Below are positions 3,235-64,000 of a stretch of 64,000 nt of DNA, piece by piece. Under the pieces are notes generated by a model. That model did no database searches. It was not told the DNA's origin and saw only the letters and a list, made by a program, of their open reading frames with translations. This DNA comes from Polytrichum commune (Eukaryota > Streptophyta > Polytrichopsida > Polytrichales > Polytrichaceae): positions 58,213,169 to 58,277,168 of the forward strand of contig OX485806.1 of the NCBI GenBank assembly GCA_950295325.1, in the 5' to 3' direction. The position numbers and the translations under genes are program-made. Within the stretch, counting starts at the first letter, position 1. Each line of letters starts with the position of its first letter.

Positions 3235-3236
3235 AA

Positions 3237-7374: not shown

Positions 7375-7530
7375 CCGCTATGGAGTCCCGGCAAGCCAAC
7401 TGCCGGTGACTAGAAAGTACGGAGTCCCAGCAATCGAACTGCTGGCGGCTCGAAAGAAAAACAAAGTCTCACCACTCTTTCACTCAACAATTCTTCTCCT
7501 TGCAAAAAGTGGGGAGGAGATGGAAGAGAC

Positions 7531-7708: not shown

Positions 7709-7759
7709 ATGATTAAACGGTCCGCTAATCCAATTTGACGGACCAGTCATAATACTCAT

Positions 7760-23762: not shown

Positions 23763-25157
23763 TCAGGGTATTAGTTGTAGCATGTGAAGCTCAGAATCAA
23801 AACCCAATCCTGTAATGGATGCTGGCAGAAGATCTGCATCAACCATTCCTCCAAAAACGAGGATGGAATGGCCAGACTCTAGTGCACAAGCTCCGTGGAA
23901 GCACCTTCTACTTGGCGGTTGACCGCATTGTTTCAATTTCTTCCAAAATCGAGGTGCCAACTTGTCGCCACATAATGATTTCTTGGGATAGCTTGCCGTA
24001 CTAGAGGAGGTGCGACCTGCCTGTACAGCAGCCATCGGATCAAGAACCCAGGCATCAGCCTTCCGAGATCTTCGTGCATCCTCCCCTCCAAAAATCAAGA
24101 TTCTTCCACCAAATATTAGTGTCGCAGAGTGGCCAGCACGCGGGGTAGGACAGTCATGTAAAGATTGAAATTCGCATGCCCTCAACTCAACCCAAACAGG
24201 GGAACTGTCCTCCATATCTAATAACCAAACATCACTCAGAACCTCGAACCGTGTACCCCGTCCACCAAAAAGAACCATTTTCTTGCCCCCGATCCAAGTC
24301 AAAGAATGGCCAGATCGCGCAGAAGGGGCAACATCCAAAGGGGTGAACACTTCCTGCCAGGATGGCGGTACCTCTGCCAAGTCCAACACCCACGTATCTC
24401 TAAGCCTGACGCCTTCCGACCCAATTCCCCCAAATATGACCACCTTACTCTCCCCTCCGTAGCAGCCAGCGTGAGCACCCCGCGAGGGAGGACATGTTGC
24501 TACCTCAACCAGTTCCCATCCTGCACCCCCTTGACAGGTTTCCTTTCCAAGTCCCTTGTTCACCCATGTATCACATTGACGAGTTCCTTTGTCATTGATT
24601 CCTCCAAACAGGACAAGTTTATTCTCGACAACTGTGCAGCTTTGACCGAATCTTCCAGAAGGGATCCCAACACAAGTCTGCTGCCACGAAATACTTTCAG
24701 GAATCCCACTAGGAACAGAGGCAACCCATGTGTCGTCAAGGTGTTGGCCTCCTGTACACCCTCCTCCAAACACGGTTACCTTACCGGCAATTGAGTTCAT
24801 GGAATGCGATGCTCGCGGAGCAGGCCCCGCATCCAATTGACGCACTCTGCGCCAGGAGGCTGCCTTAAGCATCAGCATCTGCCTGTACACTCTCTTCCAC
24901 CCCTTCCTGTCTTTGCTGAGCACCGGCCAGGCATGAACTGCTCGGCTGCCCCACTCGCGGTTGCATATGCATGCCCAGAGGTTATCACTTTCTGCAATTA
25001 CCCGAAATCTCTTGCATGTCAAACCAAAAGCAATTACTGATTGCACCGGAAGGCACACCAGGATGGCCAATACCTGGTCTGACCCGAGAGTGGAAAGCTT
25101 GCATTCCATTGGAGTCAAATTCCGCCCGTTCTCATCTTGAGATACGATGTATACCAT
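23763..25157 (-). CDS. F-box/kelch-repeat protein, At1g51550-like, intact, single exon
   Basis: An uninterrupted 464-codon frame. The ATG at 25157 (MVYIVSQDEN) is preferred; a second ATG begins MECKLSTL. Residues about 20-65 form an F-box (LGSDQVLAILVCLPVQSVIA, then LTCKRF), which in this family binds SKP1 in an SCF ubiquitin ligase. Six kelch blades follow, each with a hydrophobic-FGG core and a later W: VTVFGGG, LVLFGGI, VVIFGGI, MVLFGGR, ILIFGGE and ILVFGGM. The product would be a substrate receptor in nucleus or cytosol; its target is unknown. Length and layout match the plant family of F-box plus C-terminal kelch propeller. It is the only clearly intact gene here, with no neighbours in an operon-like arrangement. 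The upstream region has a 16-bp palindrome at 25254-25269. Confidence 0.92.
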   Translation of the reverse strand: MVYIVSQDENGRNLTPMECKLSTLGSDQVLAILVCLPVQSVIAFGLTCKRFRVIAESDNLWACICNREWGSRAVHAWPVLSKDRKGWKRVYRQMLMLKAASWRRVRQLDAGPAPRASHSMNSIAGKVTVFGGGCTGGQHLDDTWVASVPSGIPESISWQQTCVGIPSGRFGQSCTVVENKLVLFGGINDKGTRQCDTWVNKGLGKETCQGGAGWELVEVATCPPSRGAHAGCYGGESKVVIFGGIGSEGVRLRDTWVLDLAEVPPSWQEVFTPLDVAPSARSGHSLTWIGGKKMVLFGGRGTRFEVLSDVWLLDMEDSSPVWVELRACEFQSLHDCPTPRAGHSATLIFGGRILIFGGEDARRSRKADAWVLDPMAAVQAGRTSSSTASYPKKSLCGDKLAPRFWKKLKQCGQPPSRRCFHGACALESGHSILVFGGMVDADLLPASITGLGFDSELHMLQLIP

Positions 25158-25253
25158 GACCACACCTGATCAAGCATATGCTGCATCTTCTTGAAGTTTG
25201 ACATTAAGTAAAGGATGCTGAACCTAGCCCCTCGAGTAGTATGAGGAATGATG

Positions 25254-41356: not shown

Positions 41357-43209
41357 CTAGGATGAGAGAAGGAGATTAGAAAGAGAGAGACATGTTTGCT
41401 TGGGGATTCCATGGCGAGCCATGACGTGGTTGAGGTTATGCCAGAAAATAACTTGAGCATCCATGTCCTCGGATTGGAAGTCGCAGCAAGCGATGGTCAT
41501 AACGCGCTGGTAGGTTCCGTTGTATACGTGGCAGGCCATGGTGGTCCACTTGGCGATGCGTTTGACATGGTCGGACATGATCCAAGCATGCTCGAGATCC
41601 CCGCCAGGTTGCATGCGCTTAACCAAGTCGACCCCACTACCACGGCCGACCTCAGACATCTTGAAGACGAAAACTTTGTCCGTCTCGTCACCCTGGCCTG
41701 GGAATTGATTCCATTGGACATAGGCCCAGGTGTTGACACCTCTAAGCTTGGCGATGCCATCCATAACTCCTAGCCTACGCAAGTATTTGAAAGTGGTAAC
41801 CTTGTTTCGGAGGTGGGGGGAATTCAACTCCTTGCAACGATAAAAAACGGGCTCAAGTTCTTCCAAGGAAAGAAGTTGATGAGGATCACTATCATTGCGG
41901 AGGAGGAATTCACCCACAAGGTCCTTGCTGGCCTCAAGAATGATTTTGCTATGAGTGGCGTGGGGCGTTCGCTCGACGTGCTCCTTGATTAGGGCGTTGA
42001 TGCGCTAGCGGCTATCCCTGCAGTTACCGACCTTGACGGGGTGACGATGATTGCCAAGATGAATGCACGCCCGCTGAGTGGTATCGCTGCCGTGGACGTA
42101 GAAGATTTTGGCAACGCAGGGTGCATTGCATTTGGGTGGCTCCTTACAGATCTTGCACACTAGAGTGGAGGAGGCAGGCACCGGACCACCGACTGGAAAA
42201 GGGTCCTTGGTAAATCCATCAAATTCAGTATCATTGACTAAGGAGGTACGATGAACACGTTGGAGGTAGTCGCAATGAGGATTGTGGCACTTGAGGTGGC
42301 CAACGCAGGTGGAGGAGCGAAAAACAAGGCCTTAGTCATTGCTAATGCTGGTGGTTTGGGTTTTGGTCCTGACATGGCCGTCGTAGGGTTTGTCCATGCC
42401 GTCCATGGATTTGGCCTTGGTATGAGAGGATGAGACACCAACGGGGGGTAAAACAAACATCCGATTACCATCGAAGCGAGGAGGGAAGAAATTGACCTCT
42501 TCAATTTGCAAGGTGTCATAATCTAGCTTCTTGAGGATGTTTTTCCTACCGGGCATGGAAGCAAGAGAACGTAGGCATTGAAGAATGGAAATGGATGGTT
42601 TGGCAGGGGATGGACGAAGAGGACATAAATGTTGAAGGCTTACAGAGGGGGGGTCAGAAAAGAGGAATTGAGGGAGGAAGGGGATGGCTTGAGAATGGGA
42701 GTAGATAGAGGGGACTCATCACCCTTGGAAGAATCTGAAAGATGTATGACAGTGTGTATACCAGGTTTAATATTAACTTGACTACGGGAGGAGTGTTTAA
42801 AGTGGAAGAGGATGAATGGGGGGGGGGTACGGATTTCCGTGGATACAGTTGTGCAAGAATCTGGGAGTCCTTACACTCTATATTTTCCAGCGCAAAGTTT
42901 CCACACTGATGATCCGTTGTCGGCAACCCTAGGATGCTCACGCATGGTCAATGACAAAAGAGAAGTAACATTATCATAAATCTCGCGTTCGACCCATATT
43001 GTACTATTTCGCAACGAAAACTTGATACTAAGGTGAAGGGAAGAGACAGATGCAAATCCGTTTGCATCTATGGGGGAAAGAAAAGGGGATCCCGACGCCA
43101 TGGGCATGAAGCTCAACCATTTCTGATACACATGGCATTGTGGATGAGGAAGCCATGGACAAAGGGAGGGACGAACAAGAAAAAAATCCAAAAAAAGAAA
43201 ACGAGGCAC
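41357..43209 (-). pseudogene. Mutator-like transposase-family gene, decayed copy
   Basis: This is homologous to the plus-strand region 62659-64000. Blocks in order (minus): SPIDANGFASVSS..GKYRV (about 43075-42871), an IKPGIHTVIHLSDSS segment (about 42780-42700), FFPPRFDG (about 42490), a Cys/His-rich block (about 42310-42020) with GHLKCHNPHCDYLQRVHR, CKICK and RACIHLGNHRHPV, and a core block (41917-41370) with VFVFKMS, GSGVDLVKRMQPGG, HAWIMSDHVKR and MTIACCDFQSED. The WRKY/FLYWCH-like zinc block before a D-containing strand is the usual layout of MULE transposases. Breaks: in-frame stops at 42332-42334 and 42005-42007, at least one frame change between the first and second blocks, and loss of homology just after 41400, so the catalytic domain is cut short. 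Assignment to MULEs is by motif and recall. Confidence 0.65.
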
Positions 43210-44039: not shown

Positions 44040-45587
44040 GGGTTCGGGTCACATAGACACCGTCTCGATTGTACTTGGAGGCAAGATTGTGTCTAGTGAG
44101 GTTGCTTGAAAATATTTCCAAGGAAGGGGGTCGCATCAAATTTTGCCCATCTTAATTTATAGAGGTGGAAGGAGGTTGTGATTGGAGGCCATATTAGGTA
44201 GGTTGCTTTAAAATATTTCCAAGTAAATGGGTCGGGTCACATAGACACCCTTTCGGTTCCGAGAGGGTGGTGGAGGGGTAGGATCCCCACATCAGATTGT
44301 GCATAGGTGACGTAGGCCATATTGTGGTTAGTTAGGTTGCCTTGAGATATTTCCACACAAGGGTCGGGCCACATAGCCAACCTCAAGGTTCTAAGAACCC
44401 CACAACAAATTTTCCTTCCGGACCCAGGTTTGATTCCAGAGTGAAGTTTTCTTTATGTATCTAGTATGTGCAAATTCGGGGCGCGGGGAGGATCCCCACA
44501 TCAGATTGTGCATAGGGTTCTAGGAACCCCACATCAGATTCATGTGTGAAGTTTTGTTTGTATATGTAGCATGTGCAAGTTTGTTGTATGTATGAAGTGT
44601 TTGTTTGTATATATGTTTTGATTCATGTTTTGATTCATGTGTGAAGTTTTTGTTTGTATATATGTTATTTGAAAATATAAGTTTTTTGGATATGACATGT
44701 CACTTAGACACCCTCTCGGTTCCGAGAGGGTGCTGGACTTGTAGGAACCCCACACCAGATTTTGCTTTGGGACCTAGGCTTGTTGAATGTGTGAAGTTTT
44801 TGTTTATATATATGTTATTTGAAAATATAAGTTTTTTGGATATGACATGTTACTTAGACACCCTCTCGGTTCCAAGAGGGTGCTGGACTGGTAGGAACCC
44901 CACACCAAAATTTGCTTTTGACCCAAATTTGATTCATGTGTGAGATTATGTTTGTGTATCTAGCATGTGCAAGTACGAGATTCGGGTAGGCTCCCCACAT
45001 CATATTTTGCTTTGGGACTTAGGCTTGTTGTATGTGTGAAGTTTTTGTTTGTATATATGTTATTTGAAAATATAAGTTATTTGGATATGACATGTCACAT
45101 AGACACCCTCTCGGTTCCGAGAGGGTGCTGGACTGGTAGGAACCCCACACCAAAATTTGCTTTTGACAGAGGTTTGATTCATGTGTGAAGTTATGTTTGT
45201 GTATCTAGCATGTGCAAGTACGAGGTTCAAGTAGGCTCCCCACATCAGATTTTGCTTTGAGACCTAGGCTTGTTGTATGTGTGAGGTTTTTGTTTATATA
45301 TATGTTATTTGAAAATATAAGTTTTTTGGAAATGACATGTTACTTAGACACCCTCTCGGTTCCGAGAGGGTGCTGGACTTGTAAGAACCCCACACCAGAT
45401 TTTGCTTTTAACCTAGGTTTGCTTCATGTGTGAAGTTTTTGTTTGTATATATGTTATTTGAAAATATAAGTTTTTTGGAGATCACATGTCACTTAGACAC
45501 CCTCTCGGTTCCGAGAGGGTGTTGGACTGGTAGGAACCCCACACCAGAATTTGCTTTTGACCCACGTTTGATTCATGTGTGAAGTTA
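44040..45587. repeat. Tandem array with a recurrent 20-bp hairpin
   Basis: Related units containing gaaaatataagttttttgg, then CCCTCTCGGTTCCGAGAGGG (9-bp arms, 2-nt loop), then ggaaccccacacca, are repeated. The hairpin starts at about 44248 (one change), 44711, 44861 (one change), 45106, 45351 and 45500, giving spacings of about 150 and 245 bp. The longer spacing includes a second unit type (tatctagcatgtgcaagta). Short frames such as 44605-44943 arise from the repeat and are unlikely to be genes. The array abuts an LTR-A fragment. Confidence 0.85.
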
Positions 45588-46039
45588 TGTCTATTTGGCC
45601 CCAACTCTTGGTAGAGAGACAAAGAGTTTCTTGACGGTGGGGTAGGGGCCCCGCATAGAGTCCTAGAGGCTTATATGAATGAGGTGGTGTGGCCTCACCC
45701 ACCTGAGGTCGAACGGCACGGCCTCCGTGGGCTTTGGCCCAATGTGAGGGCATAGTTGCCTAATATGCTTCGGGTTGTTGTAGTGTTGCTCCGGCAATAC
45801 GATGATCAACATAAGATTGGACTTTCATGGATGGAAGTCCACATCTAAGAAATGGTTACCGATTAAGGGGTGAGTCCTGAAAACAAAGTAGGAGGGTTGG
45901 TTCCCTCTTATGAACTATAAGGTCTGGGGTAAGAGGAGCTAACCATTAGCATGGCGGAATGCGAAGGGTTAGCATTTTTAACCTTTGCTAGAAATGAAAA
46001 TTGGCAATATTGTGAATGGGGCTAGCAAGAGTTGCGACA
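45588..46039 (+). mobile_element. LTR family A fragment (last about 450 bp)
   Basis: It is the reverse complement of the 3237-type LTR from about its middle to its end GTTGCGACA at 46039. The left part is replaced by the hairpin array. It is followed directly by gypsy internal sequence at 46040, but without a clear tRNA-iMet primer site. Confidence 0.8.
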
Positions 46040-47153
46040 AGTTATGCCTAGAGCCCAATGGTTAGTCAACCCCCTGACAAAATACATTTTGAAATCCTTT
46101 ACATTTTTGAATGGATCACCAAATTTTGTTCAATTGAACAAGGTTCTTAGATTTGTTATGCAAAATGCCATAAACAGACCCATTTTTGACAAATCCTCAC
46201 CGAGGTAACACCATTGGTAGAATCCAATGAAGTTGAATATGACAACGATATGTATTATTTTGTGGACATACTAGAGAACAAGTCTAATGTTCTTTTGAAA
46301 CCAAAATGTTGACCTATAAGAGCCTTCAACCCTATGAAGGATTATGACCTATGGTCAGACCTCTACACCTTGAAGGCCAACATTTTGGTGGCCCAATTTA
46401 TGTAGGTAGTTCCTACATTCAAGAAATATAGTATGAAAGTGGTGACCACCATTCACAACATTTGCAAGTTGGTTATGGTGGCCAAAATCCACGATACACT
46501 CCTAGGTGATGGATAACCAATCGCAATAGAGGTGGAAATCCTTGATTAGGTGATCCCTTGGGCCCTTGTCGATGGAGGAAGTGGCATAATCATAATGCCA
46601 TTTTCCTCCCTCGAGAAACTAGGGTTGGAGATGATGGGTTTGTCTCTAAATGTTGTCAACATGGTTGGTCAATGTCAAATCATGCAAGTAGGATAAAAGG
46701 CGGATTTGGAGGTTAAGATTCAAAAAGAAGTTTACACCTTGATTTATCATGTCCTCTATCTTGTAAGGATGCCTATTGTTACCCCATTTTTTAGGGTAAA
46801 GATTGGTTACAAAGAGTAGATACTAAGATATGTTGGTCCACGGATAGGTCCCGAATGACCTTCGAACCACCACATAATCGTTGCATTTTCATGATCAATC
46901 CACCATCCACAACACCAGAATCGGAACGTCTCGATAGAGGTGAGGTGAGGTGGATGGAACCTTAGAAACTATGGGGTATGTTCAACCTTTCGTTGACCTC
47001 AAACAACAACCAATCACTAGTAGAAAATTCTGCGTCCGGATTAACAGAAAGGCATTGGTCGCGGTTGTTACTTAGGACGCATTGACTTGGACATGATGTA
47101 ACACAATTTTGTTGATTTTTTCTATTGATATGGTCACAAAAAGATTTTTTTTA

Positions 47154-47157
<4 letters not shown>

Positions 47158-47197
<40 letters not shown>
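47158..47197. repeat. (AT)n microsatellite
   Basis: About 40 bp of alternating AT at the tail side of the SINE. Confidence 0.9.
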
Positions 47198-47204
47198 CAT
47201 TAAA

Positions 47205-47398
47205 AAATAAAAAATGAATGGATAGCAGTTCTGCAACTCCTAATCCCTCCCAAGTAAACCTCAACCTATACCTCACCTACAAGTATAGACTACCTACCAC
47301 TCACCTATATGGCAAGGCCAAGGCCGAAGGTGTCGGCCACGGGAATCGAACCTTGCACCTAGTGACACCCACACGTGTGCCTTAACCACTAGGTCAAA
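47205..47398 (-). mobile_element. tRNA-derived SINE inside the CACTA element
   Basis: On the minus strand there is a pol III A-box-like TAGTGGTTAAGG (47391-47380) and, about 28 bp on, a B box GGTTCGATTCC (47352-47342), as in tRNA-derived plant SINEs. A non-tRNA body follows and ends in AT-rich sequence. Exact ends and target duplications are not clear. Confidence 0.7.
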
Positions 47399-47459
47399 AC
47401 ATCACACATGATATAAATTGAGTGTTTTAAACCTTTCTAGAATAAGGCCACTATTTTCT

Positions 47460-47880
47460 CTTTACTACCTACTTGATGTATATATTTACAGTAAATATAT
47501 ACAGTATATAATTACAGTAAATATATACTATACATATAAAGTAAATAATTACTGTAAATGTATACATATTAATATATATTATATAAAATAAAATAAAATA
47601 AAATAAAAAATATATTAAAAGATTATATATTATATTATATTAAATTAATATATTAAATAAATAAAATTATATAATATACATATATATTATAAACATACAT
47701 GTTACATATATTATATACATATATGTTACATATATTATGTACATATATGTTACATATATTATATACATATATGTTACATATATTATACATATTAATATAT
47801 ATATACATATATATATACATATATATATACATAATATTAACTATCAACTAATATAATATTTATAATATTTACACACCTTT
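47460..47880. repeat. AT-only repeat block in the CACTA element
   Basis: Almost pure A/T with short repeats such as acatatatgttacatatattat. The minus-strand frame at 47653-47847 is low complexity and not a gene. Confidence 0.85.
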
Positions 47881-49024
47881 GAATTCGTAATTATTTCCAT
47901 ACCCATACACTTACAAGTCCATAAATTGCAAAAAATTAAAAAGATTTTACAATATTCCAATAGATCTTAGAATATTCCAAAATATTCCACATTTATTAAA
48001 ATTTTGTTGATTTGGTCATTGTACTATTCTAATCAACAAAAATATAGGCAGCAAACTGTTGATTTTTACAAAAATTCAAAAATCAGTGAAATCGGTCATT
48101 GCAGTGCCCGGATCGACAAAGATCTGTTGATTTTTTGTTGATTTGGTCATGATTTTCTAGTAGTGAATTGACCTAGGTCCCATTAAGAGCCTAGGTCTTG
48201 GCCTTAATGATTGGGATGATGATGGAAAATTCACAAGGTGGTTGGCGGAGTCCCTAGAAGAAATTACAAAACTGGTAGTTCAGTTCATCCACTATGTAAC
48301 AATTAGACTTGCAATGAACAATGGACCCTAGGATGCATACCCTGAATTTATCACCATTGCATATCACATCCCTATCAAATTAGTGTACACCTTCAAATGC
48401 GACGATATCCAACCACATTGCTTTTGCGACCTTACAAATGACAAAATATATCATTTTTTTATCTTCTACACTTTCGTAAAACCTCCAATAATCTCCATAA
48501 ACCTACAAGTAAGGAGTAGTTTTCCTATCTACCCATCCGTGCCTAAAGATTGGGAACATGGAGTTACAAACCCCATATTCATTGCGGATAAGAATTGGCA
48601 AGAGGTGGATGTGTCACTCAAATAAGAGGAACCACCGTTAGTTAAAAAAAATCTCAACTCTGCCCTAACAAAGTGAAAGAATATTGCGCTTTTATTTTGG
48701 GGTTCAATTTTCTTTGCATGCTATTATAAAGACATTAAAGGCATACCCCACAAGATAGCCTGGCACACCATCCTTTTGATCCCCAATGGCTGATTGGTTT
48801 GCCAAAGACCGCCAAATAAATCCATGCTTTCAATTTATAATGAAGGTTGACATAGAAAAACTCTTTGAATCCGGTTTCATCAAGCTTGTGGAGATTATGA
48901 ATTAATTTTTCCCTATGATGTTGGTAAATAAAAATAACAAGAAATTGACTACAAATGCCTCAACAAGGCAATGCAAAAGGACTATTTCCCATTGCCATGT
49001 GTTAACCACGTTTTAGACGAGGTG

Positions 49025-49640
49025 TGTCGCGTACCTTTTCATGAGGAGTGCCTGCAACACCATGGGCACAAAGGGGACCCCTGAGTGACACCCAAGACTT
49101 GTGGCGCCATTGGTGACAGGGCCCAAGTTATCCTAGCGTGGGTGAGGGCCCCGGGCATTGAGAATGCCTCTAACGCACGGAGACTAGGAGTCATGAGGGT
49201 AAGGCCATGAGTTATGAATAGCTTATGGCGGCGGAATCCAAGAATGCTAATGAACACCTCAATCGGAGGTGTGAGCTAGGAGATATGGCAATTTGAATGG
49301 GGCGATGTCCCGGGACAACACCCTGGGACAATAGTGACCTGGGAGTAGCGCCCGGGCTACCTACGTTTGAACAACCAAAACTACCTTAATACTTGCCCGA
49401 ATGGGGAAAGTGAGGGGTCCATGGGCATCTAAGCAAAGACTAAATGACAATATAGTGGTTGGTTCATAGCATTAGACATCATATATAGATTTTATGATGG
49501 TCTGAAGCTGCTGGGGGTTCTAGCCCCAACGGCTAGGGAAAATGTCTACTTGGCCCCAACCCTTGTAGAGAGACATAAACATACTTGACGGTGGGGTAGG
49601 GGCCCTTCCCAAAGTCCTATAGGCTTATATGGGTGAGGCG
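49025..49640 (+). mobile_element. LTR family A fragment (first about 620 bp)
   Basis: It is the reverse complement of the 3237-type LTR starting at its TGTCGCG end. Similarity stops near 49640 after the ggcttatatgggtgagg block. It follows the reverse-transcriptase-start fragment directly. Confidence 0.8.
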
Positions 49641-49899
49641 GCTTAGCCGATTAACCCCCTCGGAGTATACCTGACAATTGGGAAAAGTTATTTTGCGAGC
49701 GGTGAGTTTTGTAGAATATTGAAATTTTGTGTGGTGAAACATGCCCTATGACCGTGGTGTAGAGCTAAATATTGAAATATTTTTTGACAAATTTTTTGAC
49801 AAATTTTTTGACAAAAATAACCTATAACCGTGGTTGAGGAACCTATAACCATGGTTGAGGAACCTACACTATATTTGCTTGCATATTCTCTTATAAGGT

Positions 49900-50870: not shown

Positions 50871-51734
50871 GTTTGATTTGAACATAAACATAGGATGATG
50901 TCCATAATTTATGCACAAGCATTTTTTGGGTTATTCCATTCTTCTTCCAATCTATATTCTCATTTTTTAATTCTTCCATTATTCTTCCAGTGTATCTTCT
51001 TATTATTTGTAATTCTAAAAATCGTATTGATATTCTATACTTATTATCTTTAATATTTTGGTTTAGTTGTTCGGTTTAGTTTTCCTTAGTCTTTGTTTCA
51101 TGTTTTGATCTATATTTTTACAACTACATTTCTTTATCTTTTTTAGTTAACCTCTATGTCTTATTGAAAAATAGAGTGGAAGTTGGATTTAGGGTACACT
51201 TTTCGTTGGTGTACACTTTAGTCAACTTGTAGACCATTGTGTAAGATAGATGTGCATCTCATATCATTGTTGAACATACTCATGTAGAGGTATTAGAAAA
51301 CACACTTGAATGCCAAGTTACATGAGGTGACACTAATGGTTTAGGGTCATTTATTCAACACAGCATTCGCCTAACAAATCGCAAGCAATCATTGAAAAAG
51401 TGTACGAATGCGTTCACTCCTCCTCATCACACTGAACAGCTTCTAGATCTAGAAAACTCAAGCCTCTACGAGACAGAGAACGGGAGCGCGAAGTGGGATT
51501 CCGTATGCCCTCAGTTGCAAAACAAAAAGCGATTTCTTCGGCATATGTAGGCAACTCAAAGGGTTTAGGAGGGCTTGGGAAAAATGTCGGCCTACAAAAA
51601 AAAGGTCGATGCTGTGGAGAAATCAGGATCTCGCACCTGCAAAACGAAAGCCGAAATAAAAAGTGACAACAAAAAGAAGTAACATAAATCAACATGATCT
51701 CAATAGAAATGCATACTTGAACGTTTAGACTTAC

Positions 51735-52796
51735 TTACTGAATTGGGATTTCTTCACGATCCGCTCAACTTCAATTTCCTCGCCATCAATGTCATCCACG
51801 ATGGTGAGTGGATCCAGGTGAGGAGGCGAAAGAGCAGGTGAAGCCCGGATGAGGGGTGCCAGTAAGGCCTTGAAGATTTCCTCATCCGGCTCAAACGCGG
51901 CAATATGTCGGTTGATATTGCGACAAACGTGTATGGACGACCCTAGAGAAGTGAAGATGATTTAGGTGTTAAGTGAATGTACAAATAAAATTAAGTTGAA
52001 ACCTTGAGGAAATTAAACTGAGACTGAGTAGGGTTTAGGTTGAAAAAACGAACCAGTGGCTGCAGTGCAGTCAACCACGAGATCCCCAGGAAAGGTAGAC
52101 GCTTCTATAAGCATCTGCATGAGCAAGACGGACTTCTCCCGAGGGCCTCACCAATGCAAATTGCCATTCATGAGCTGATCATCTTTCGTGACCAGGTTCA
52201 TGAGGATGTCATCTCTGGCAACGTCTACTCCGTGGTGGTCAAGAGCAGGAATTGGCTGAAAAGAAAATGTAGAATTGGGAACCCCTGAAAAACTCCTCAC
52301 CGCCAAACAGATGCCAAATCTCATGGTTTGGCATTCGAACAACAATATCAGACAAGAATGACAATGTCCATGGATAATCAAATCATGTGTGAAGATCCTT
52401 AATGTCAAAGCTGAATCAGAACACAAGACATAGTTTTGAACTTACAGTGGATGTCGAATGTACTGCCGATGTCAAATGCAGACGGTTCATCCCCCACCAC
52501 TCCTTGCGGATTTCAAATCCGTAGGACTTGCAGTATCCGAGTATGTTTGACTTTGTGCTCAATCGAAAAGGATGAATGATGATGAGTGCACCACCATCCT
52601 GGAGGTGTTGGTCGGCAAAATAAAAAATGGGCTCCAGCCATTCCTTAGAATCTTGGTTCCATAAGGGCACAGATGAAATAGGGTTCGAAATACTTGGAAC
52701 TGGGAGACCTTCTGGTTGGTCCACAAGGATCAAATCCACACAAGGGTGGTTTCCAGAAGATCCTTTGTGCGCACGCCTTTTATCAGATGAATGCTG
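51735..52796 (-). other. Exons with methyltransferase motifs IV, X and I
   Basis: In protein order: LILVDQPEG at the place of motif IV (DPPY in active enzymes), a helix and DGGALIIIHPF strand, a YGFEIRKEWWGMNRL segment, then REKSVLLMQMLIEAS (motif X-like, Lys before a helix), GDLVVDCTAATGSS (motif I, SAM-binding G-loop; active enzymes often have LDPFxGSGT) and HIAAFEPDEEIF (acidic end of strand 2). The IV-X-I order is that of beta-class N4/N6 amino-methyltransferases. DQPE in place of DPPY and CTAATG in place of PFxGSG suggest an altered or lost catalytic centre. One in-frame TGA is at 52148-52150. Confidence 0.6.
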
Positions 52797-52920
52797 CTAA
52801 ATGAGCAATTCAATGCATGTAAGAAACGTAACAATTTCAAAAGCAAACAGAAATGGAGAACTAAACACTACCAGTTGCAAAACATAACCACATAAGATGC
52901 GCAAATGAAAATAAAGATAC

Positions 52921-53617
52921 TTTAGAAATAAAAGCTTTGAGGTCATCATAGAGGGGCGATAAACTGCCCGATTCACCGCCAAGGACCTCAAACAATGATG
53001 AATTAAGAATGAACTCATCATTCATGCAATTGGCCTCCTCTGTGAGATCAACAACCGGCAACTGGGAAAATAGCTCATATGAGGTGTCCCTCTTAGTGCC
53101 CCTAGCTGAAACTGAGCGAATCTGGGAACCAGAGTCCACGGTTGGACTAGGCTGCACATGACTTATCATTTCTACCTCTACAGGAGTTGACACCTTCTTC
53201 TTGCCTTTCTTCGTCGATTTTGCAGCTGCTTTCTGCTGCCTCTCCAACTCCTTCAGGTGAGCTCTTTCTTCTGCCTCCTTCACCTTGAGGGCTTTCTTGC
53301 GGTCCTCTTCAATCCGCCTCTTCAGTGCCTTAGCCCTGTCATTGTCATCCTCGATGCCCTTCAAGTCCTGCATCTCCTCTCCAGACTCTCCAATAGCCTC
53401 GTGTGATTTCCTCAATTCCATCTCAAAAGGTGGGGTGTAATGTGTAGCACAATCGAGATACCACGCGCCAGAAGCAAGGTGTGAAGTCGTCCATGTCCTC
53501 TGCTGGGCAGCTGTGAACATGCATGCAGTGTTGGACCGGTTCAACCAAGTACTCAAGAAGAGCGGCAAGTCCTCTTTGAGAATCGCTTTGTTTGGAAGGA
53601 GCTCAAACTTGAAGAAC
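52921..53617 (-). other. Exon with conserved block and charged coiled-coil linker
   Basis: It starts FFKFELLPNKAILKEDLPLF, with conserved Trp/Cys positions (AQQRTWTTS, AWYLDCATHY). It then has a long charged helix (DDNDRAKALKRRIEEDRKK and on) and a Lys-rich GKKK cluster that could act as a nuclear signal, and ends in a Ser-rich stretch. No stops in 232 codons. Confidence 0.7.
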
Positions 53618-53969
53618 CTGGAAAATAATGATGGCCATAAGAACATGAAACATTTGGAATTTATAAAGAGGGAAATAGAAGTATGAAATCAAAGCATGAA
53701 AGGCAAACAGAGCAAACACCTGAAGAGGACTTTTCTCACAACAAGGTCCATTCCCTTGTATCCCTGGAAATCATCAATTTTCTTAAAGCAGTCGTGACTG
53801 CGAAACACCGAGACAAATGCATGGTCCCAAAGCGCGATCCTGCATTCCTCAATATATGCAGCCAAAGCTAGAGGCTCGGAAGGCACAGACATGTCGATGG
53901 GGATGCGATCCTGTTGAACTATGTCCTCAAACATAGTTGTCGCATTATCGGAAATCTGAAAGTAAACAA

Positions 53970-54575
53970 ATTACACAATGCTCCTTAGAGTGCCTTCATA
54001 GTTGAACTAAACCCACATGAAATCAGAATATAAACCAAACTCATTTAAACCCCCCCTACCCTCCCTTTAATTCCTATCAACCTCAAATTCCAAAATAGTG
54101 GTATCGGACCAGAATGCTCCCTAGAGTGCCTAGATAGTTGAACTAAACCCACATGAAATCAAAATATATACCAAAATCATTTAACCCCCCCTAACCTGCC
54201 CTTAATTCCTATCAACCTCGAATTCCAAAATAGTGGTCTCGGACCAGAATGCTCCTTAGAGTGCCTTCATAGTTGAACTAAACCCACATGAAATCATAAT
54301 ATAAACCAAAATCATTAACCCCCCCCTAACATCCCCTTATTTCCTATCAACCTGAAATTCCAAAATAGTGGTCTCGGACCAGAATGCTCACTAGAGTGCC
54401 TTCATAGTTGAACTAAACCCACATGAAATCAGAATATAAACCAAAATCATTTAACCCCCCCCTAACCTGCCCTTAATTTCTATCAACCTCGAATTCCAAA
54501 ATAGTGGTCTCGGACCAGAATGCTCCTTAGAGTGCCTGCATAGTTGAACTAAATCCACATGAAATACCACACAAC
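53970..54575. repeat. Intronic tandem repeat, about 4.3 units of 135-136 bp
   Basis: The block gttgaactaaacccacatg starts at 54001, 54137, 54272, 54407 and 54543. Each unit also has a run of seven or so C (aacccccc) and a ggtctcggaccagaatgctc block. It lies in the 1.55-kb intron between exons 55701-55510 and 53955-53720, and explains that intron's unusual length. Confidence 0.9.
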
Positions 54576-56134
54576 TTGCTCAATACATGACCTCAATGCC
54601 CAATGATATGCACCACAAAATTTACACCAACATATTCAAATGGACTTAAGATCAAGGTCTACACATGTAAGGCTGAATATAACCTCTCCTCATATATAGC
54701 TCCCCCCATGCCTTATTTCAAGAGTGGAAGTTAACTTAAGTTCTAGATAGCTCTATCTAATTTCAGTTAATTAATATCTAGTTATCTAAGGTATACTTTG
54801 ATACATCCACATTAGTTATCTAGTTTCCATATTGCTAGTTTCCATATGTGTTGAGGTTGCACTTAGTGTATAGGTTCAATAGGGCACAAACTAGGCCTTT
54901 CATAATCCAAAGCAAGCATTGGAGGTCAACTGGTCAAGCTTGCGGCAAAGGTAGTGATGTTCGGAAGAAGCTTTGAATACCATTTCACCCATCTATGAAA
55001 TGGTGTGTCCATAAAGGCAATGCTATATAAATTGGAAAACACTTAACCCTTATAGCTCCAAGGAGCCCATAGTACAACCCAAAGTGTGTGGGTATTATTT
55101 CCTTAATTTTCCAAATTCTCTAACTTCAATTTCAACATTGCAAACTATGTTGGAAAATACTGAAGTTTCAAGATATTCATACCCCAGCCCACCAGCATGC
55201 CTTTGCTAGGAAAATTGAAAGTTTTTCTTCGGTAACGGGCTTCGCAGGAACTTTTCTTGCCTCTCGAGTTGCGGCAGAGGCGTTTATGTATTAAAGCCAC
55301 TTGATTTTGAAAATCGGGGATGCTCTTGACGTAGCAATTAGCTGAAGCTTTTCCAAGTTGAGCTCTGGAGATATTGAATTATTGGCATAATACCGCTCAA
55401 TCTACCCAATTACAAATGTCCTCATTAAAAATAGACAAAGCAGGTATCTTGAAATCAAATTCAGAATGATCAACCTGATAAAACACTGGATTCAAGGAAT
55501 GAAACTTACATCATCAAACCAACCATCAGTGAGGTCTGGATTTGCAACCGCGACGAGTTTTCCCATCTTCTGACGCAATGAAATACATCGTTTATCCACT
55601 GCAGACTTCATCGCGGCCGCTTTTTGAGCAGGAGATACAACCACATCAGACTGCTCAACAAGCTGGCGGACACCTTCGCCAGAAGCCATGCTTATTTCAT
55701 GCTGCCAATTATCCACAAGTTAGTTCGTGCTGCGAATAATCCACACTCCTGTTATGAAGAATCCTTAAACAAAGAACTTCAGTACTCTCAACGAACTACA
55801 CATTTAATCAAAATGAGTGAAGCACAGTACTTTAAATCAAAATGAACAAGTGCACTCACCTGAAAGATGAAGGAGGTGAAAACATTCAAAGGTAAGGTGT
55901 ACCATGTTTTCTTTTGGCCACGCTTACAATGCATGAAGTCAGCTAGTGACAACACGTCCTTCAGTTTCTCAATATCCATTTGTCCATATTTCCTAACTCT
56001 GAATAGCGTGTGGACAATGTTCGTTCTGACATGGGAGTCCTCGGTGTGCCTGAAACACAACAATACATACATGAAAATGTTTCGAATTCAGGAACAACCT
56101 CAAAGATAATTAAAACGCTGAAAATCACACTTAC

Positions 56135-56544
56135 TTGTTGATCGTGTGCATCACTTGCATTACCAAGCCAATTTTGTCCTTCGTGTTGAGGAGAATGGAG
56201 TCCATTCTAAAATGCCAGGAAGGATCATTCTTATGAAGGCGGTCCATATGGTTGAGCTATGCTTGGCGTTTGTGATTACCATCACAGACAAAAAACATAA
56301 GATTCTTCATATGTGAAAGTTCAGGTACCGATAGGAGATACCTGTTGAATTCCTCATTCTGCGCATTCCAGATGGATTCCAATTCTCCTTTACCACAGAT
56401 GTAACCTCCTGAGTACTTCCATGTTCATCAGTCAATGTAACGTAGAACACTGCAGCCCCGTCACAATAGCCATGAACAAATTCTTGTTCAAGCTTATCGA
56501 GATCACTCTGGAGGGTCGGCCTCACCAAAGGCATGGCAACCAAC
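56135..56544 (-). other. Exon with the ParB/sulfiredoxin-like domain
   Basis: The exon begins VAMPLVRPTLQSDLDKLE, then GAAVFYVTLTDE, and later LMFFVCDGNHK followed by WHFRMDSILLNT and VMQVMHTINK. The pattern fits the N-terminal ParB/Srx fold: a P-x-R strand, a helix, a beta hairpin, then D-G-x-H-(R/K) in the nucleotide- or DNA-binding loop. The basic residue after GNH is Lys here. A frame change lies near 56385-56400 and an in-frame TAG at 56257-56259. The fold assignment is from motifs only. Confidence 0.6.
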
Positions 56545-57169
56545 CTGCAAAGTGGAATCGAAAAACGTAAAACTGAAATTGGCTGGAATCTCAGGCTGGA
56601 AATGGTGGCAACGGAGTTTAATTTCTGCCTGGTTCGAATCTCGTCCTCATCATCTCCAAACGACTCATCGTCGTTGTGGGACTCATCATGGTCCTCTCTT
56701 CCATCGTACTCCATATCTGTGTCCGCAATAGCGACAACCGAAGGTCGAACTGGTGAATCACGTGGACAAGCTGTTGCTGCCCTCTGTTCAAGCAGAGTGG
56801 CTAAAGACTCAATAACTATCTTCAAGTCGCCAAATATTGCATCAAGTGTCACTACAACCGATTCAAGTTCCACCAGAAGCAATGTCTAAAAATTAAAGGT
56901 ACTAGAAAGTTAGTGAAAGCTCCCAACTTAATGCAAAAAGTTACAACTTTATCCAAACAACACCAAATTTATAATACACAGCAGACCCAGTATTTGAAAA
57001 TGAATGGTATTATAAAGTTCAAATGGATACTTCAAAACTTCAAAATGAAAACTTCAAATGAGGAGATCCATACATCCCTAGAAAGCTAACATCAGCAACT
57101 AAAAGGTCACAAAGTCTCAAAGCAAGGAAAAGAAATGACTAGGAGATGTGGCCTATCAAAGTGATGTTG

Positions 57170-58291
57170 TCAACGGCATACCATTCCAGCATGACCACCC
57201 TGCGTTTCGTCCTGCGTTTCGTCCTTCTTTTGTTTGAGGGAGCCTAAGCTTTCAATGACTTCCCCCTCCGATTTCTTTGATCTGAATCTCATAAGAAAAG
57301 CAGTTCCTAAAGTGGGCCAATCTGGAAAATGATTTGGGCCAAATTGGGAGTACCATTCTAATGCTCGCTTTTTCAAGGTGACTGGAAATAATTGCAACTT
57401 GATTGCATCTGTGTCTTCCTGGTTGGCAAGACACACATTGTTAAATTCTTGCATGTAGGTGTCGGGATCTGTCTTACCTTTGTAGGTCGGTAAGGGAACC
57501 TTTGTTCTCCGTTGTTGTGCAGCCATGTTGGCTGAAGTGGTTGGGTTGTTTCCAACACCAGGTGGATTGTTGTTATTTGGAGGTGGTGGTGGTGGTGGGC
57601 TGACTCTGGTGTTAATTCCAAGGTTTTGGAATTGTTTAAGTCTTTCTTCAAATTTCCTCCTTAATTCGTCGAATTCTTCTTGTGTGATGGGTTTTTTGAT
57701 TTCTTGGTCCGTTTGGTTCTGAGTGCTCCAACCTGAAAAGCCGGAGTCCTCGTAGCTGAATTGTTCTTCAAAATTCCTTCTTAGTTTCTCCCAACTCTTT
57801 TGGTCGAAAAGATCTTCCTCGGTCGTGTTTCCTTGATGGGTTTTGTCTTGCGCTTTATCTACTGGGGTATGCGTACCCGTGGTTTTACCTGTACCTTTTG
57901 TTCTCAATACGTAGGTCCCAAGAGGGGTTCCTATTATCAGATCATCCTCGTTTTCCTCGCTTTCTCCTTGATTCAAGTTTTCTTCATCCAAGTCTTCATG
58001 TTCTTTGCTTGTCTCACCATTACCTCCTCCTTCACTTTGACTTCTATGGTGGCTGGGCTTAGGGGTGTGGGAACCTATTGCCGGTGGTTCAGAAGCGTAT
58101 CGGCTCTCTTCACTTCCTGTAGTTCTTTGTCTTGTACGCCTAGTGTACCTCTCTTCTCTCTTGAGTTGTTCAGTCCGCCTTATGCGGTCTTCTCTGGAAT
58201 GCATGCGCTCCACATGCTTCTTCTCTGCCTCCTGTTCTCTAGGAGTTGGTGATGTACTTCTCGTACTAGATGTATCCTCATGATCAACCAT
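57170..58291 (-). mobile_element. Gag ORF of the Tat/Ogre-like element (373 aa as read)
   Basis: A long Arg/Glu-rich N-terminal part precedes a Pro run (PPPPPPP) and the retrotransposon gag domain: LPTYKGKTDPDTYMQEFNNV, ALEWYSQF, FPDWPTLGTAFLMRF, SLGSLKQKKDE. Gag similarity ends near 57205, where sequence of the host intron takes over. The upstream ATG at 58291 is the likely start. Confidence 0.8.
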
Positions 58292-58427
58292 GTACGCTAC
58301 TGAGAGTGTTTCGGGGTCATGGTCTTGGCCGGCTCTCTCAGCTCTGACGCCTCAATGCACCCGTACTTCACCTGTTTGCCTATGGATGATTACTTGGATA
58401 CTTGATTTAAGTTCTTGTTTCTTGTTC

Positions 58428-59066
58428 CTATTCCTGTTCCACATTCAAGTTCCCCACACTACCATGCAAACCACCATACAGAGGTAAGAATATCTTTCTA
58501 ACATACAAATCATACAATAACCCCTCCTGTTTATAGTGGTATCCTCGATGCTTGGTTGCTCCCAACGCATGGGCATAAATACCTTCACCTCCGTTATTCC
58601 ACACCTTGGAATAAATTAACGCTTGTAGTTCCTCTGGTAATTCCTCAATGCTTCTTTCAAATTGAGACCGGTAAGTAAAGCCTATTTCTTTTTCTTTAAA
58701 CAACTGCCATGTTTTGTCTTCGTAGTATTTTTGCATGTCCCACATCAAGTTGTGGAATTTCTTCGTTCCTTCCCATTTTCTCAAGGTTGTTTTATCGGTG
58801 TTATACTTTGGATAATCCCACGGCCACCTGCCTAGGATTGAGATTTCTTGTTGTTTAGAGTTATCTTCTTCTCCTTCTCTATTTTCCTGCACAATAAAGC
58901 CGCGGAGGTTAAACTGTTCGAGTCGCCGTTGCACTGCTCTTTCTACACGATCTTGTTTTCGCGGTCCAAACGTTTCCGCCCACTTCCGTTGTTCATTTGC
59001 CTCCCGTTGGCTTCTCCCATTATATAGGTAATACAAGTTCTCCATTCGTGTTTTCCTGCCATCCAA
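58428..59066 (-). mobile_element. Extra ORF upstream of gag in the Tat/Ogre-like element (212 aa)
   Basis: An open frame between the primer site and gag, rich in charged residues and Trp/Tyr (RWPWDYPKYN, YKQEGLLYDLYVRKI). Its position is that of ORF1 in Tat/Ogre elements. The function of ORF1 is unknown and I see no known domain. Confidence 0.65.
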
Positions 59067-59133
59067 CTTTCCGAAATATTTTGTAGTTTGTAATTTAGAT
59101 ATCCTAATCTAGGTGAGTGTAACATCCATGTGG

Positions 59134-59155
59134 CGAATCCCCAGCATGGTCGCCA
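59134..59155 (-). other. Primer-binding site, tRNA-Arg-like
   Basis: On minus TGGCGACCATGCTGGGGA follows the LTR end by three bases. It resembles the tRNA-Arg-type primer sites of plant Ogre elements (TGGCGAC..TGGGGA). Confidence 0.75.
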
Positions 59156-59158
59156 AAA

Positions 59159-61309
59159 TGTCGAGGTCGCCTTCAAACCCTCAGCAAACTTAGACGGTGT
59201 AACCCGCTGCTGACCGGTTTACATGGAAGTTACTCCCACCAAAATTAGACCTTCATTAGGTTTTCCATTTCTGGTGAAGGTGTTTGCATTCATATAATCT
59301 TAATTTTGTGATACATAATCTTAATGCTCTTTTGAATTCTCAAGGACAAATTGACCTAAGTTTTCAAGTTTATGTCCCCCGAAATCTAATGTCAAGGTTA
59401 AGTGTTCCTAAACCTTTATTAGATTTTGCATCTTATATGGATTTAGTAACATAATTCTTTTTCTAATCAAGACCCTTTTATAAATCTCTAAGGATAAAGT
59501 GTCCAAGTCTTTAAGTTTATGTTCCCCGAAACCCTAATGTCAAGGTTAAGTGTTTTAGGGAGAACATCGTTCATACATACAATATCTTTCATGGTTTGAA
59601 TGATCGTAAAATATTCTTAATCCATTTAAGAATATGTACTTATGATAAGGTTACAATTTCCTTGAAAGTCAAAACATACTCCCTCACTAAAGTATATTCA
59701 TAAGATTTCCTTCCTACACTCAATTCCTAGAGTTCACATAATTTCTCATGAAATGTTTCCATCATAATTTTATTCCGTTTTCGAGTATTCTTTGATCTTA
59801 TGCCATGATTCTAGAGTTCTCTTTAAATCTAGAAGGTAGAGTTTTAATGAGTTGGAATCCTAATCTCGTTTCGAGTTGATAGTTGATGAGGCTCAATTGC
59901 CGGCCGCATTCCGTGTACTCAAGTTGATATGATTTCATGTTTTAATAATCTCCATGTCTCATCCACCATGGTTCTCTAAATCATAATCTCGACTTCACCA
60001 CTTAGCTCAATCTATCTCTAATCATACTTGAGTAGCTTAGGTATCCATTTCGGCTCCTCCATGTGTAACTCTTTCGAGTACTTCTAATTTGGCCTTTCGC
60101 CTTCACGTTATTCGATTTCCAAATTCATCAATATCTCTAAAAGTTCCTCCGGTTATTTCCTAAATCCTAAATTATTTAGGAATCCTTTTGATTCTCTTTG
60201 TGATTGAAGAATCTCTATGATTTTCTATCCTCCAAAGTCTTGAATCTTTTTGAGAATATTCTTCTCCATTTTTAAAAGCCTTCAAGCCTCAAGGATGATA
60301 TTTCAATCCTTTTGTTGCTCGAGGATATTAGTTTTGTTCTTCAAGTCGAGGATAATATTTCAATCCGTGCGTCTTTAAGTTGAGGATAATATTTCAATCC
60401 TTTAGTTTCCAAATCGAGGATAATATTTCAATCCTTTAGTTTCCACGTCGAGGATAATATTTCAATCCTTTAGTTTCCAAGCTTGAGGATAATGTTTCAA
60501 TCCTTTAGGTCTTGTAGTCCTCCACCTCGAGTGCTTGCGTTCAAATGAGGGTAATTAGGTGCCATATGTGGCCCCCTTTATATAGGCTTCAAATTTAGGG
60601 TAATCTAAGATGTGGCGGTTAGGTCTTTAAATGTCTGTATTTACTAATTTTAGCCCTGAATGTTCATACAGTCTAAATTCAGCCCTGTCCGATCTATAAT
60701 GAGACTAACACGTGCTTAAAATAGATCTACCCATGAAGTACATACGGGCATGTTCTAACCGCCTAGATGTGCCATTGGTAGTTACAACCCCCTTCATCCG
60801 TTCATCCGTTCATCCGCATTGCACCCATCCATTCATTCTCATTGCATAAGTTCATTAAAATGAAATGGGTAGTTTATGTTCATCCGAAGGGATTTCATCC
60901 CCCTCGGGTATGTCTTTCCATCCCCCTTTGTCCTAGGTGTTCACTACTTTGCTCACTAAACCATTACATGGCCACCTAACCTACTAGTGTTTAGGGTTCT
61001 CACTAATAGGTTCGCCGGCAGTCACTAGGCCGTAACCCTAGTCTCCCGCTACCCCTATTAGTAACGTGGCGGGTCTATAAGAAGGTAAGCCCGTCCGTAA
61101 GTCCCGCTACCCCTTCTTCACTCGGGCCCGCGCTCCTCTGGGCCCTCAGCTCCTCTTGCCACGTGTCGCTGCACTCGAAGCCGGCTTCCTGTCCCTTTTT
61201 CGGCGCGGCTCTCGGTCACTTGCTCGCGCTCCTCTCCAGCGCTGGTCCCATCCTCGTCTCCGTCCAACTCCTATTCCCATTGCCTGTTTTGCTGTTTGAA
61301 TGCTCCACA
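59159..61309 (-). mobile_element. LTR, family C (2,151 bp), 5' LTR of the Tat/Ogre-like element
   Basis: On minus it starts TGTGGAGCATTC and ends GGCGACCTCGACA. It has a TATA box (CCTATATAAAGG, near 60585). Its end region matches the solo LTR-C at 11454-13556, including GTAAACCGGTCAGCAG and the ttcggggaacataa block. Similarity in the upstream part is low. Confidence 0.85.
60293..60503 (-). repeat. Tandem repeat of about 34 bp, about 6 units, in LTR-C
   Basis: The block gaggataatatttcaatcc recurs at about 60293, 60347, 60381, 60415, 60449 and 60484 with tttagtttcca spacers. It lies just downstream of the LTR TATA box in element orientation. Confidence 0.85.
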
Positions 61310-61535
61310 GATCTACCGCTGAAACATCAAATGGTTTTTCCCCTTCAGATCCTCTAGCTGTGGCCCTGGAAGATTTAACTCCTCGCCTACCCATTGTTGT
61401 CTGCAAGTTATACGGCGTTCCAATCCTCTCCCTTGATTCTAACCTTTGCCTTCTCTCAATACGCCTCTGCTTTTCAATGTTCCTCCTAACTTCTTGATCT
61501 GCTCTCGCTCTCGACCTAGTATTCATCTCTATCAT

Positions 61536-61904
61536 TATTGATGCAAAGAGATCTTATATATCATTGTCAACTCTGTCATAATTAACATATATTCGCCATT
61601 TTGTTCACATTGGATATAGATAATTAATCTCCTAATTCTTGAATTATCACGCGGCGCTATAACCTATTATACCTAATCGAATCCTGCCATGTCAGATATT
61701 TGGTGTTCATAAATGATTCACAATTATTCAAGTCCATTCTATTCTTACATGTTACAGGTTGTCCAGCATTTACCTAAATAAATATTGATTATTAATTGAT
61801 CTACAAGATATCATATATACAGGCATTGGTGCCTACATTGGGTGTATATAATACGAGATTGCTTGTACCCATTCCTTCATCTCGTTTCATCATATTCTTC
61901 TCCA
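61536..61904. promoter_or_regulatory. Divergent intergenic region (about 370 bp) between the methyltransferase-like and transposase-like genes
   Basis: The minus-strand gene starts at 61535 (or ATG 61526) and the plus-strand frame at ATG 61905. A good TATA box (TATATAATA, 61845-61853) lies about 52 bp before the plus ATG. No equally well-placed box is seen for the minus gene. Shared control of the two genes is inferred from spacing. Confidence 0.5.
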
Positions 61905-62333
61905 ATGGGTACTAACTCAAGACTCCCGAGCCTTGCTCCTTTAGGTGCTCTTAGTTCATCACAAATCCACACGACGTCGTCGTTCCCCGGTTTTGCAGAC
62001 GGCAACAACATGAAGATACTAAACCACCCTGACTGCTCAATTACTCCAGCGATCGCAGTTCAGAGTCCACATCCCCGGACTCCATCTTTGCAGACGGATG
62101 TTGCAACGCTGATAGAGGATAAGTCTCCTTTACAGACTCATGCCTATTCTAGAGTAGGGGTTATTAAACCGGGCACTTACTCTAGATCTCTATTAAGGAG
62201 TGCCCCACGTCCTCAAGGTCAGGGACTCGGTTGCGCAGGATGCACTGCAGTTCATAGTTTAGGGATTGACCATTGCCATAAACATGCCGGTGACAAAAAT
62301 GGCAAAGGGCCCCATAAGCGTCTTCGTCATTAA
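61905..62333 (+). CDS. 142-aa frame, probable first exon(s) or small gene before the transposase-like region
   Basis: The ATG at 61905 follows the TATA box at 61845. The product is Ser/Thr/Pro-rich and disordered (MGTNSRLPSLAPLGALSS), with a Cys/His-rich C-terminal part (LGCAGCTAVHSLGIDHCHKH) that could bind zinc. It may be an independent small protein or the 5' exon of the gene continuing at 62659. Donor-like GTGACA follows CATGCCG near 62289, but the phase to the next block does not fit with the only good acceptor seen, so the link is unproven. I do not recognise the family. Confidence 0.45.
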   Translation: MGTNSRLPSLAPLGALSSSQIHTTSSFPGFADGNNMKILNHPDCSITPAIAVQSPHPRTPSLQTDVATLIEDKSPLQTHAYSRVGVIKPGTYSRSLLRSAPRPQGQGLGCAGCTAVHSLGIDHCHKHAGDKNGKGPHKRLRH

Positions 62334-62658
62334 TCTCAATTTAGCATTCTACTATTATTACCGAGCTTATATCATGCTCTACACATTATTCTTGGCGGCC
62401 GTCATTCTTATGACCTTATTTGCCAATATATATTTTATTCATCAATGTTTAGAATGTATGCATGTTATTGGATTATACTATTTGGTTTCTTACCTGTCTC
62501 GGACTTACGTCCAAAATTGGTTTTTCAGCCTTCTTTCAGCTTAATCTGCATGACTAGTTCATATATTGCCAGTTGGCTCTGTAATTGCTCTCCTGGTATA
62601 TATTGTCGCCATTTCAATGGTCATTGTACTTGTTTTGGTCAGAGTTCTGTGGAATACT
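62334..62658 (+). other. Probable intron or spacer
   Basis: T-rich, with hydrophobic chance frames. A possible acceptor, TTGTTTTGGTCAG, ends at about 62641, just before the next coding block. Confidence 0.4.
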
Positions 62659-64000
62659 ATGGCCCTGCTTCGTGCTGAACCTCCTTCTGTTCCTGTCCTC
62701 TTTCCATTAGGTGAAAACGGTCATGCTATAGTCACTTCTACAACATTAAGTTTGAGGTTTCAGTATCGTGAGGTCACTGTCTTTGTCGAAGAAGAGGTTT
62801 TTGACGATCATAACGGTCTGGTTTCACATGCAATTCGTCAGACTAGAGTTGAGAATGACGTCGATGCGTTCTGGTTGCTGAAGCCTGGAAAATATCGTGT
62901 ATATGGAGTCTCAGATTCTATGTTAGAGTGTTCGACTGAACTCCTAACACCTAGGGAGTCGTCCACTGTTAGCGTTGAGATACCTGTGCTGTCTAAGGTC
63001 AAAATTGAGCCCGGTCTACAGACAATTTATGAGTTGAGTGATGATTCCGACGGCGATGTTGAAGTCCTAAAATCAGAGAGTCCAGTCCAACCTTCGCTGA
63101 CTCCAGAAGCAGTTCGCAAGGAAACAACTCATGTTAATCCCTCTCGTCATTCTGGTCAGGCCAAGGTTGTCGCAAGTCCTCCTCTCAGTATCGTTCTTTC
63201 ATTGATGTGCCTTGGAGCTCGTAAGCGGTCCAAAAGCGTGTTGTCTCGAAATAACTTTGATGCGATCAGACTCCAACAGGTTGATTACCTTCCCCCTCGT
63301 TACGATGGTGACGTTATCTTCGAATTTCCACCTTTAGGTGACCATGGGCTGAATACAAAGGCCATGCTTGGTCTCGCACGATTACATCCAATATTCAGAA
63401 TGATCTCAAGATTTTGTTTCGTACATCTTCTTGTTTGGGCCACCTCCGTTGCGACAATCCTGCCTGTGAGTATCTTCAGCGAGACCACAGGACTTTTAGC
63501 GTGAATGAAATAGAGTGGGAAGGATTATCTGAGAAATTGTTTGAAGTAGGGTCCAAGCCTCCCGCTGGGTCGACAGTTGTTTGCAAATCCTGTAATGTCC
63601 CTCCCACCTGTGTTGCTCTCTGCACTGCCAAGATCTACTATGTTACTAGAACACCTCACATGACGAGGGCTTGTGTGCACTTGGGATCTCACGACCATCC
63701 TGTCAAGTCTGGTGATCATCGGGACTTCATCGATTAGGCAGACAGCTTGATTGGGGATCAAGTCGAACGCACCCCCTCCGCCACTCGCTCTACTATTGTG
63801 CTTGAAACTGCAAAGGAAGTTCTGGGCCCACTCCTCCTTGCTAAAGAAGGTGACCCACAGAAGATCTTGGAGCTGGACGAGCTGCAAGGTATTTTCGATC
63901 GGTGTAAGCACCTCACCTCGCCCAACATTCGTGACGTAGTCACCACGTTCAGGACTATGCGTCGCTTTGGAGCCATGGACAGTATTACCAAGTTACGAGG
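62659..64000 (+). pseudogene. Mutator-like transposase-family gene, broken, runs off the right edge
   Basis: From ATG 62659 (MALLRAEPPSVPVLFPLG) it aligns block by block with 43209-41357: GKYRVYG, an IEPGLQTIYELSDDSD segment, YLPPRYDGDVIFEFPPLG, a zinc-type block (GHLRCDNPACEYLQRDHR, CKSCN, RACVHLGSHDHPV), then VERTPSATRS, LDELQGIFDRCKHLTSP and the FGAMDSITKLRG segment at the edge. The catalytic part lies beyond the window. Relative to the other copy it lacks 37 bp near 63361 between two GCC triplets, shifting the frame, and has an in-frame TAG at 63735-63737. The gene is divergent from the ParB-methyltransferase gene. MULE assignment is by the H-x-H zinc block and by the core seen in the other copy. 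Confidence 0.62.

Follow-up and report, generated by a model that had tools for sequence, protein, structure and literature searches.

A broken, intron-rich gene with an amino-methyltransferase-like domain and a divergent transposase-like neighbour in Polytrichum commune

Structure and decay of the gene

We have analysed a stretch of 64,000 nucleotides (nt) of Polytrichum commune DNA, hereafter the window (assembly GCA_950295325.1, contig OX485806.1, positions 58,213,169 to 58,277,168 of the forward strand). It holds a minus-strand gene, predicted to encode an amino-methyltransferase homologue behind a putative ParB-like segment, which stands divergent from a transposase-like gene (Table 1). 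The rebuilt gene has ten exons (56885-51414), which sum to 3,269 nt or approximately 1,090 codons. Its nine introns measure 85 to 1,227 nt each, all nine are of the GT-AG type, and the phase is kept at every junction. From 56373 onward, the joined reading frame spans 919 codons and contains three internal stops besides the final stop, whereas 200 nucleotide shuffles showed 48 stops on average and 32 at the minimum; because the exons had been picked by their open frame, this comparison overstates the gene model somewhat. In a previous set of exons, 2,948 nt in total, the G+C content was 0.47 in the exons versus 0.36 in the introns. The Pfam match described below crosses the junction of intron 8, where motif I is split, and thus supports that junction independently.

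The multi-exon methyltransferase gene is real but broken. An in-frame stop in each of exons 1, 4, and 8, together with a single frameshift in exon 1, makes a full product impossible from this copy, and the gene is a pseudogene. Intron 4 also contains approximately four tandem units of 135 nt at 53974-54565.

A sequence-only reading of this DNA had described a gene of eleven exons at 51414-61535. A multi-exon gene on the minus strand was confirmed, as were its CDGNH motif, the charged linker, and the IV, X, I order of the methyltransferase motifs, and its intron-rich nature was retained; on the other hand, ten exons remained, starting at 56885, and the upper span fell outside the gene. The exons placed above 56885 were rejected, as the open frames there include a Retrotrans_gag frame (58351-57170), by which the upper boundary had taken in foreign sequence. 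The stops, the frameshift, and the divergent transposase-like neighbour had not appeared in that reading.

Table 1. Features of the methyltransferase gene and of its surroundings in the window
Feature	Position	Strand	Remarks
Exon 1	56135..56885	-	Acidic stretch at the N-terminus, followed by the ParB-like segment; CDGNHKRQA box at 56283; 5' start uncertain
Exon 1 damage	near 56373 (frameshift)	-	Frameshift and one in-frame stop
Exon 2	55860..56049	-	ParB-like region continued; GT-AG, phase kept
Exon 3	55510..55701	-	Middle region, without family name
Exon 4	55183..55401	-	Middle region; one in-frame stop
Exon 5	53720..53955	-	Middle region; the 1,227-nt intron before it holds a 135-nt tandem repeat
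Exon 6	52921..53617	-	Charged linker (helical by eye)
Exon 7	52446..52796	-	Motif IV half of methyltransferase (VDLILVDQPEGLP); hhalign 34.8, probability 68%
Exon 8	52054..52255	-	Motif X, followed by the first part of motif I (DCTAATG); contains one in-frame stop
Exon 9	51735..51942	-	Remainder of motif I, then acidic residues (AFEPDEE)
Exon 10	51414..51636	-	C-terminus with stop codon
Divergent transposase-like gene	62554..64000	+	Cys/His cluster; decayed by a frame change and one stop; continues beyond the window edge
Second diverged copy of transposase-like gene	41357..43086	-	34-37% and 51% identity in parts; stops, apparently truncated
Open frames between the two genes	57170..59108	-	58351-57170 is a Ty3-type gag; outside the methyltransferase gene

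The methyltransferase domain and the ParB-like segment

The last exons matched PF01555 with E values of 4.4e-8 to 5.7e-9, and the part covering motifs X and I scored 36.7 bits against a curated cut-off of 26.7. Five PHROG methyltransferase families were matched at E 1.4e-4 or better, DpnA (5hfj/5hek) was matched at E 7e-6 with MboIIA and CcrM weaker, and the best phage methyltransferase reached E 1e-6, with 246 phage records matched at E values up to 1. Against a reference alignment of four bacterial and phage methyltransferases, the X-I half gave an hhalign score of 83.4 (probability 98%; best of 100 shuffles 19.9), and the motif IV half of exon 7 also exceeded all of its 100 shuffles (best 19.1). 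Both halves align with the four reference enzymes in the order IV, X, I, which is the order that defines the beta class of amino-methyltransferases. Based on these comparisons, we consider the C-terminal domain to be a beta-order amino-methyltransferase homologue, statistically supported in both halves, and on this point the beta-class assignment of the sequence-only reading was borne out. In a scan of genome contigs with the methyltransferase, one relative was obtained from 84 candidate stretches (L001), which by eye is an ordinary DPPY methyltransferase, and scans of viral contigs with the methyltransferase, the ParB-like segment, and the middle region confirmed no relative. Within the window, the middle region has one weak match of 34 residues at 35755-35856 (minus strand; 44% identity, E 0.024), which contains stops and is probably due to chance.

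The hallmark of the ParB/Srx superfamily is a GERR/DGxHR-type box followed by a strand and a helix. In exon 1, CDGNHKRQA is the sole match to [DG]G.H[RK]..A when the window is read in six frames; the pattern itself was composed after the box had been seen. The order of the segments after this box resembles the ParB fold, although the resemblance is not significant versus shuffles. The ParB domain claimed earlier is suggested by the motif and the order, but no confirmation came from Pfam, PHROGs, the PDB, profile comparison, or a fold predicted with low confidence.

Neighbouring sequences

The window holds two copies of the transposase-like gene, each of them decayed; such repetition and decay would be expected of a mobile gene. 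The divergent neighbour presumably resembles repeated proteins of early land plants and, considering this resemblance together with the repetition and the decay, we infer that it is transposase-like. Scans of viral contigs with the alignment of the neighbour and with its C-terminal piece confirmed no relative. The two copies have stops near 42005 and 63737 that fall at nearly the same alignment position, in a part where they are 51% identical; these stops may have arisen by chance, may go back to a common ancestor, or may be subject to programmed read-through.

Between the two genes, the frame at 58351-57170 matched Retrotrans_gag (PF03732, E 1.2e-6), and the open frames 59108-58428 and 61553-61146 had no Pfam match at E 1. 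A 34-nt tandem repeat lies upstream of the gag frame at 60281-60506. Farther away, direct and inverted repeat families of approximately 100-500 nt occur at 3156-9739 and 45587-49648, spread over 45 kb, and these are perhaps pieces of one repeat element. A long F-box/Kelch-repeat frame at 23763-25169 (minus strand; Kelch E 6e-55, F-box-like E 3e-6) appears unbroken and is likely a host gene.

Interpretation and comparison with known systems

We consider, with a probability of approximately 0.65, that the gene is a decayed copy of one of the ParB-like/methyltransferase accessory genes that giant DNA transposons carry and not a host methylation gene. In its intact form, the protein of approximately 1,090 residues would have a ParB/Srx-like domain, followed by a middle region, then a charged linker, and finally a beta-order methyltransferase acting on N4-cytosine or N6-adenine, and its gene would be placed head to head with the transposase gene of a mobile element. 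The ParB-like part would bind the element DNA, or would nick it as does the ParB domain of Bce_0392. The methyltransferase would mark the DNA of its own element or, with the changed motif, would be a cofactor- and DNA-binding shell that coats the DNA instead. Such marking or coating could protect the element from silencing by the host or could prepare its ends. In these terms, the relic alternative of the sequence-only reading came closest to the outcome, namely a pseudogene whose catalytic motif has changed.

Several results weigh against this interpretation. The catalytic consensus of beta-class amino-methyltransferases is (D/N/S)PP(Y/F/W). The catalytic box (motif IV) of the gene reads DQPE, whereas the four aligned enzymes carry DPPY or DPPF; as DQPE departs from the consensus, we regard the domain as a homologue and not as an active enzyme. 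Activity is thus doubtful for this copy, and even an unbroken form may have been inactive. No second copy of the methyltransferase gene was found elsewhere in the window, and the second transposase-like copy (43086-41357) was found there without a ParB-methyltransferase partner. Pfam (E up to 10) and the PDB gave no transposase match for the divergent neighbour, no inverted repeats of at least 30 nt were found in 50900-62600, and the other end of the element would fall beyond the right edge of the window. With the second copy standing alone and the surroundings rich in repeats, the adjacency of the methyltransferase gene and its neighbour could be a matter of chance. The neighbour may be unrelated and brought together with the gene by insertions, to which the solitary second copy and the gag frame sitting between the two genes would both conform. 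However, the opposite-strand layout is that of the Ectocarpus element described below (PMC12477816), and we consider such a fortuitous pairing possible but doubtful.

The N-terminal part was the other point of difficulty. No ParB match was obtained in Pfam, PHROGs, the PDB, or tblastn searches of phages and plasmids; the best Pfam matches of the segment, Phage_tube_C (E 0.0087) and DUF3689 (E 0.029), were below threshold and not to ParB families, and further weak matches were to a phage tail protein (E 7) and to sorting nexin-10 (E 0.078). The hhalign references were 14 bacterial ParBs with a usable box out of 31 loci (17 dropped), to which 4 more were added later. Among 200 shuffles of the 80-residue segment, 61 scored as well against the 14 ParBs, and against the larger set 39 of 60 did so (48 of 60 in global mode); with a 143-residue segment, the counts were 35 of 60 and 31 of 60. 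For a 201-residue version, just 8 of 200 shuffles scored as well, but its alignment misplaces CDGNH off the ParB box and was not counted. Single-sequence folds of two exon pieces had predicted local distance difference test (pLDDT) values of 58 (the ParB-like segment) and 54, and neither fold matched a PDB entry at an E value of 0.001 or below. These results are consistent with a real methyltransferase whose N-terminal part belongs to an unrelated domain, CDGNHKRQA being a chance resemblance. On the other hand, the post hoc pattern occurs once in the six frames of the window, in this very gene, and the order agrees with that of the published ParB-like/methyltransferase protein (PMC12477816). 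Also, the comparisons form a weak test, with a single broken query set against bacterial, mostly chromosomal-type ParBs. We judge the non-ParB explanation rather unlikely and keep the label ParB-like as no more than a reasonable guess from the motif.

A host origin is a further alternative, in which the plant kept a bacterial-derived eukaryotic DNA N4-cytosine/N6-adenine methyltransferase, here represented by a pseudogenised duplicate. The rotifer N4CMT and the Marchantia DN4MT1 are reportedly bacterial-type amino-methyltransferases that serve as host genes in eukaryotes. Ten exons with ordinary introns would suit such a gene, as would the bacterial-type N4-methylcytosine (4mC) reported in bdelloid rotifers (PMC8885841). 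However, the repeat-rich surroundings, the decayed neighbour in two copies, and the close published transposon precedent (PMC12477816) argue against it, and we regard a host gene as improbable.

If the transposon interpretation is correct, this recently recognised class of transposon helper genes would extend from algae to a probable land plant. The locus would then be a concrete place to ask whether plant mobile elements write their own 4mC or N6-methyladenine (6mA), and reports of 4mC or 6mA in plant DNA could be weighed against transposon-encoded enzymes as their source. More tentatively, land-plant DNA transposons may bear their own bacterial-type ParB-methyltransferase that writes 4mC or 6mA on the DNA of the element or, where the catalytic site is dead, coats it, providing a selfish label apart from the 5-methylcytosine of the host.

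Compared with beta-class DNA methyltransferases, the gene has in common the order IV, X, I and the similarity of motifs X and I, but differs in the DQPE box, in the introns that split the domain, and in the large N-terminal fusion. A bacterial counterpart in architecture is a protein (L005) from a Microscillaceae metagenome-assembled genome, the same genome that contains L001. Here ParB_N (E 1.8e-14) comes first and N6_N4_Mtase (E 6.4e-8) last, with a charged coil, judged by eye, between them; this is also the order read in the window gene, indicating that the ParB-methyltransferase architecture recurs. However, this protein is a single frame of 563 amino acids with a canonical ParB_N, and only its methyltransferase end aligns with our gene (29% identity, E 6e-4). 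It was matched in 196 of 198 genomes and, among the matches listed, end to end only in its own genome, the others being to the ParB end. Its locus (847-2538) also has a helix-turn-helix-like stretch and a motif IV that looks changed (NPSH by eye), and the protein is perhaps a DNA-binding relic enzyme. Three long ParB frames examined as possible fusions (L066-L068) had no methyltransferase motif by eye. In Bce_0392, as in the window gene as read here, a ParB-type domain is fused to a methyltransferase, and its ParB domain is reported to nick DNA (PMC5512222); by this analogy, the ParB-like part here might cut DNA and not merely bind it.

The sequence-only reading had held that no such plant system was described. 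This holds only with a qualification. No ParB-methyltransferase transposon gene of a land plant was found in literature titles and abstracts, which are a thin basis for absence, but the same two-domain protein has been published from a giant DNA transposon of a brown alga, and similar proteins are cited there from green and red algal transposons (PMC12477816, citing Iyer 2011 and Petroll 2025). For mosses, a table in PMC9033089 has a Sola1 entry for Physcomitrella. The brown algal case is Sola1-1_Ec32, a giant DNA transposon of 21.5 kb from Ectocarpus, in which the accessory gene lies on the strand opposite the transposase and encodes a protein of 1104 amino acids, in which a ParB-like domain is joined to a DNA methyltransferase whose predicted product is 4mC or 6mA (PMC12477816). 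Compared with its published description, the window gene is broken, has DQPE as motif IV, and probably belongs to a land-plant host, but it agrees with the Ectocarpus gene in the order of its domains, to the extent tested, in its opposite-strand orientation, and in length, with approximately 1,090 codons versus 1104 amino acids.

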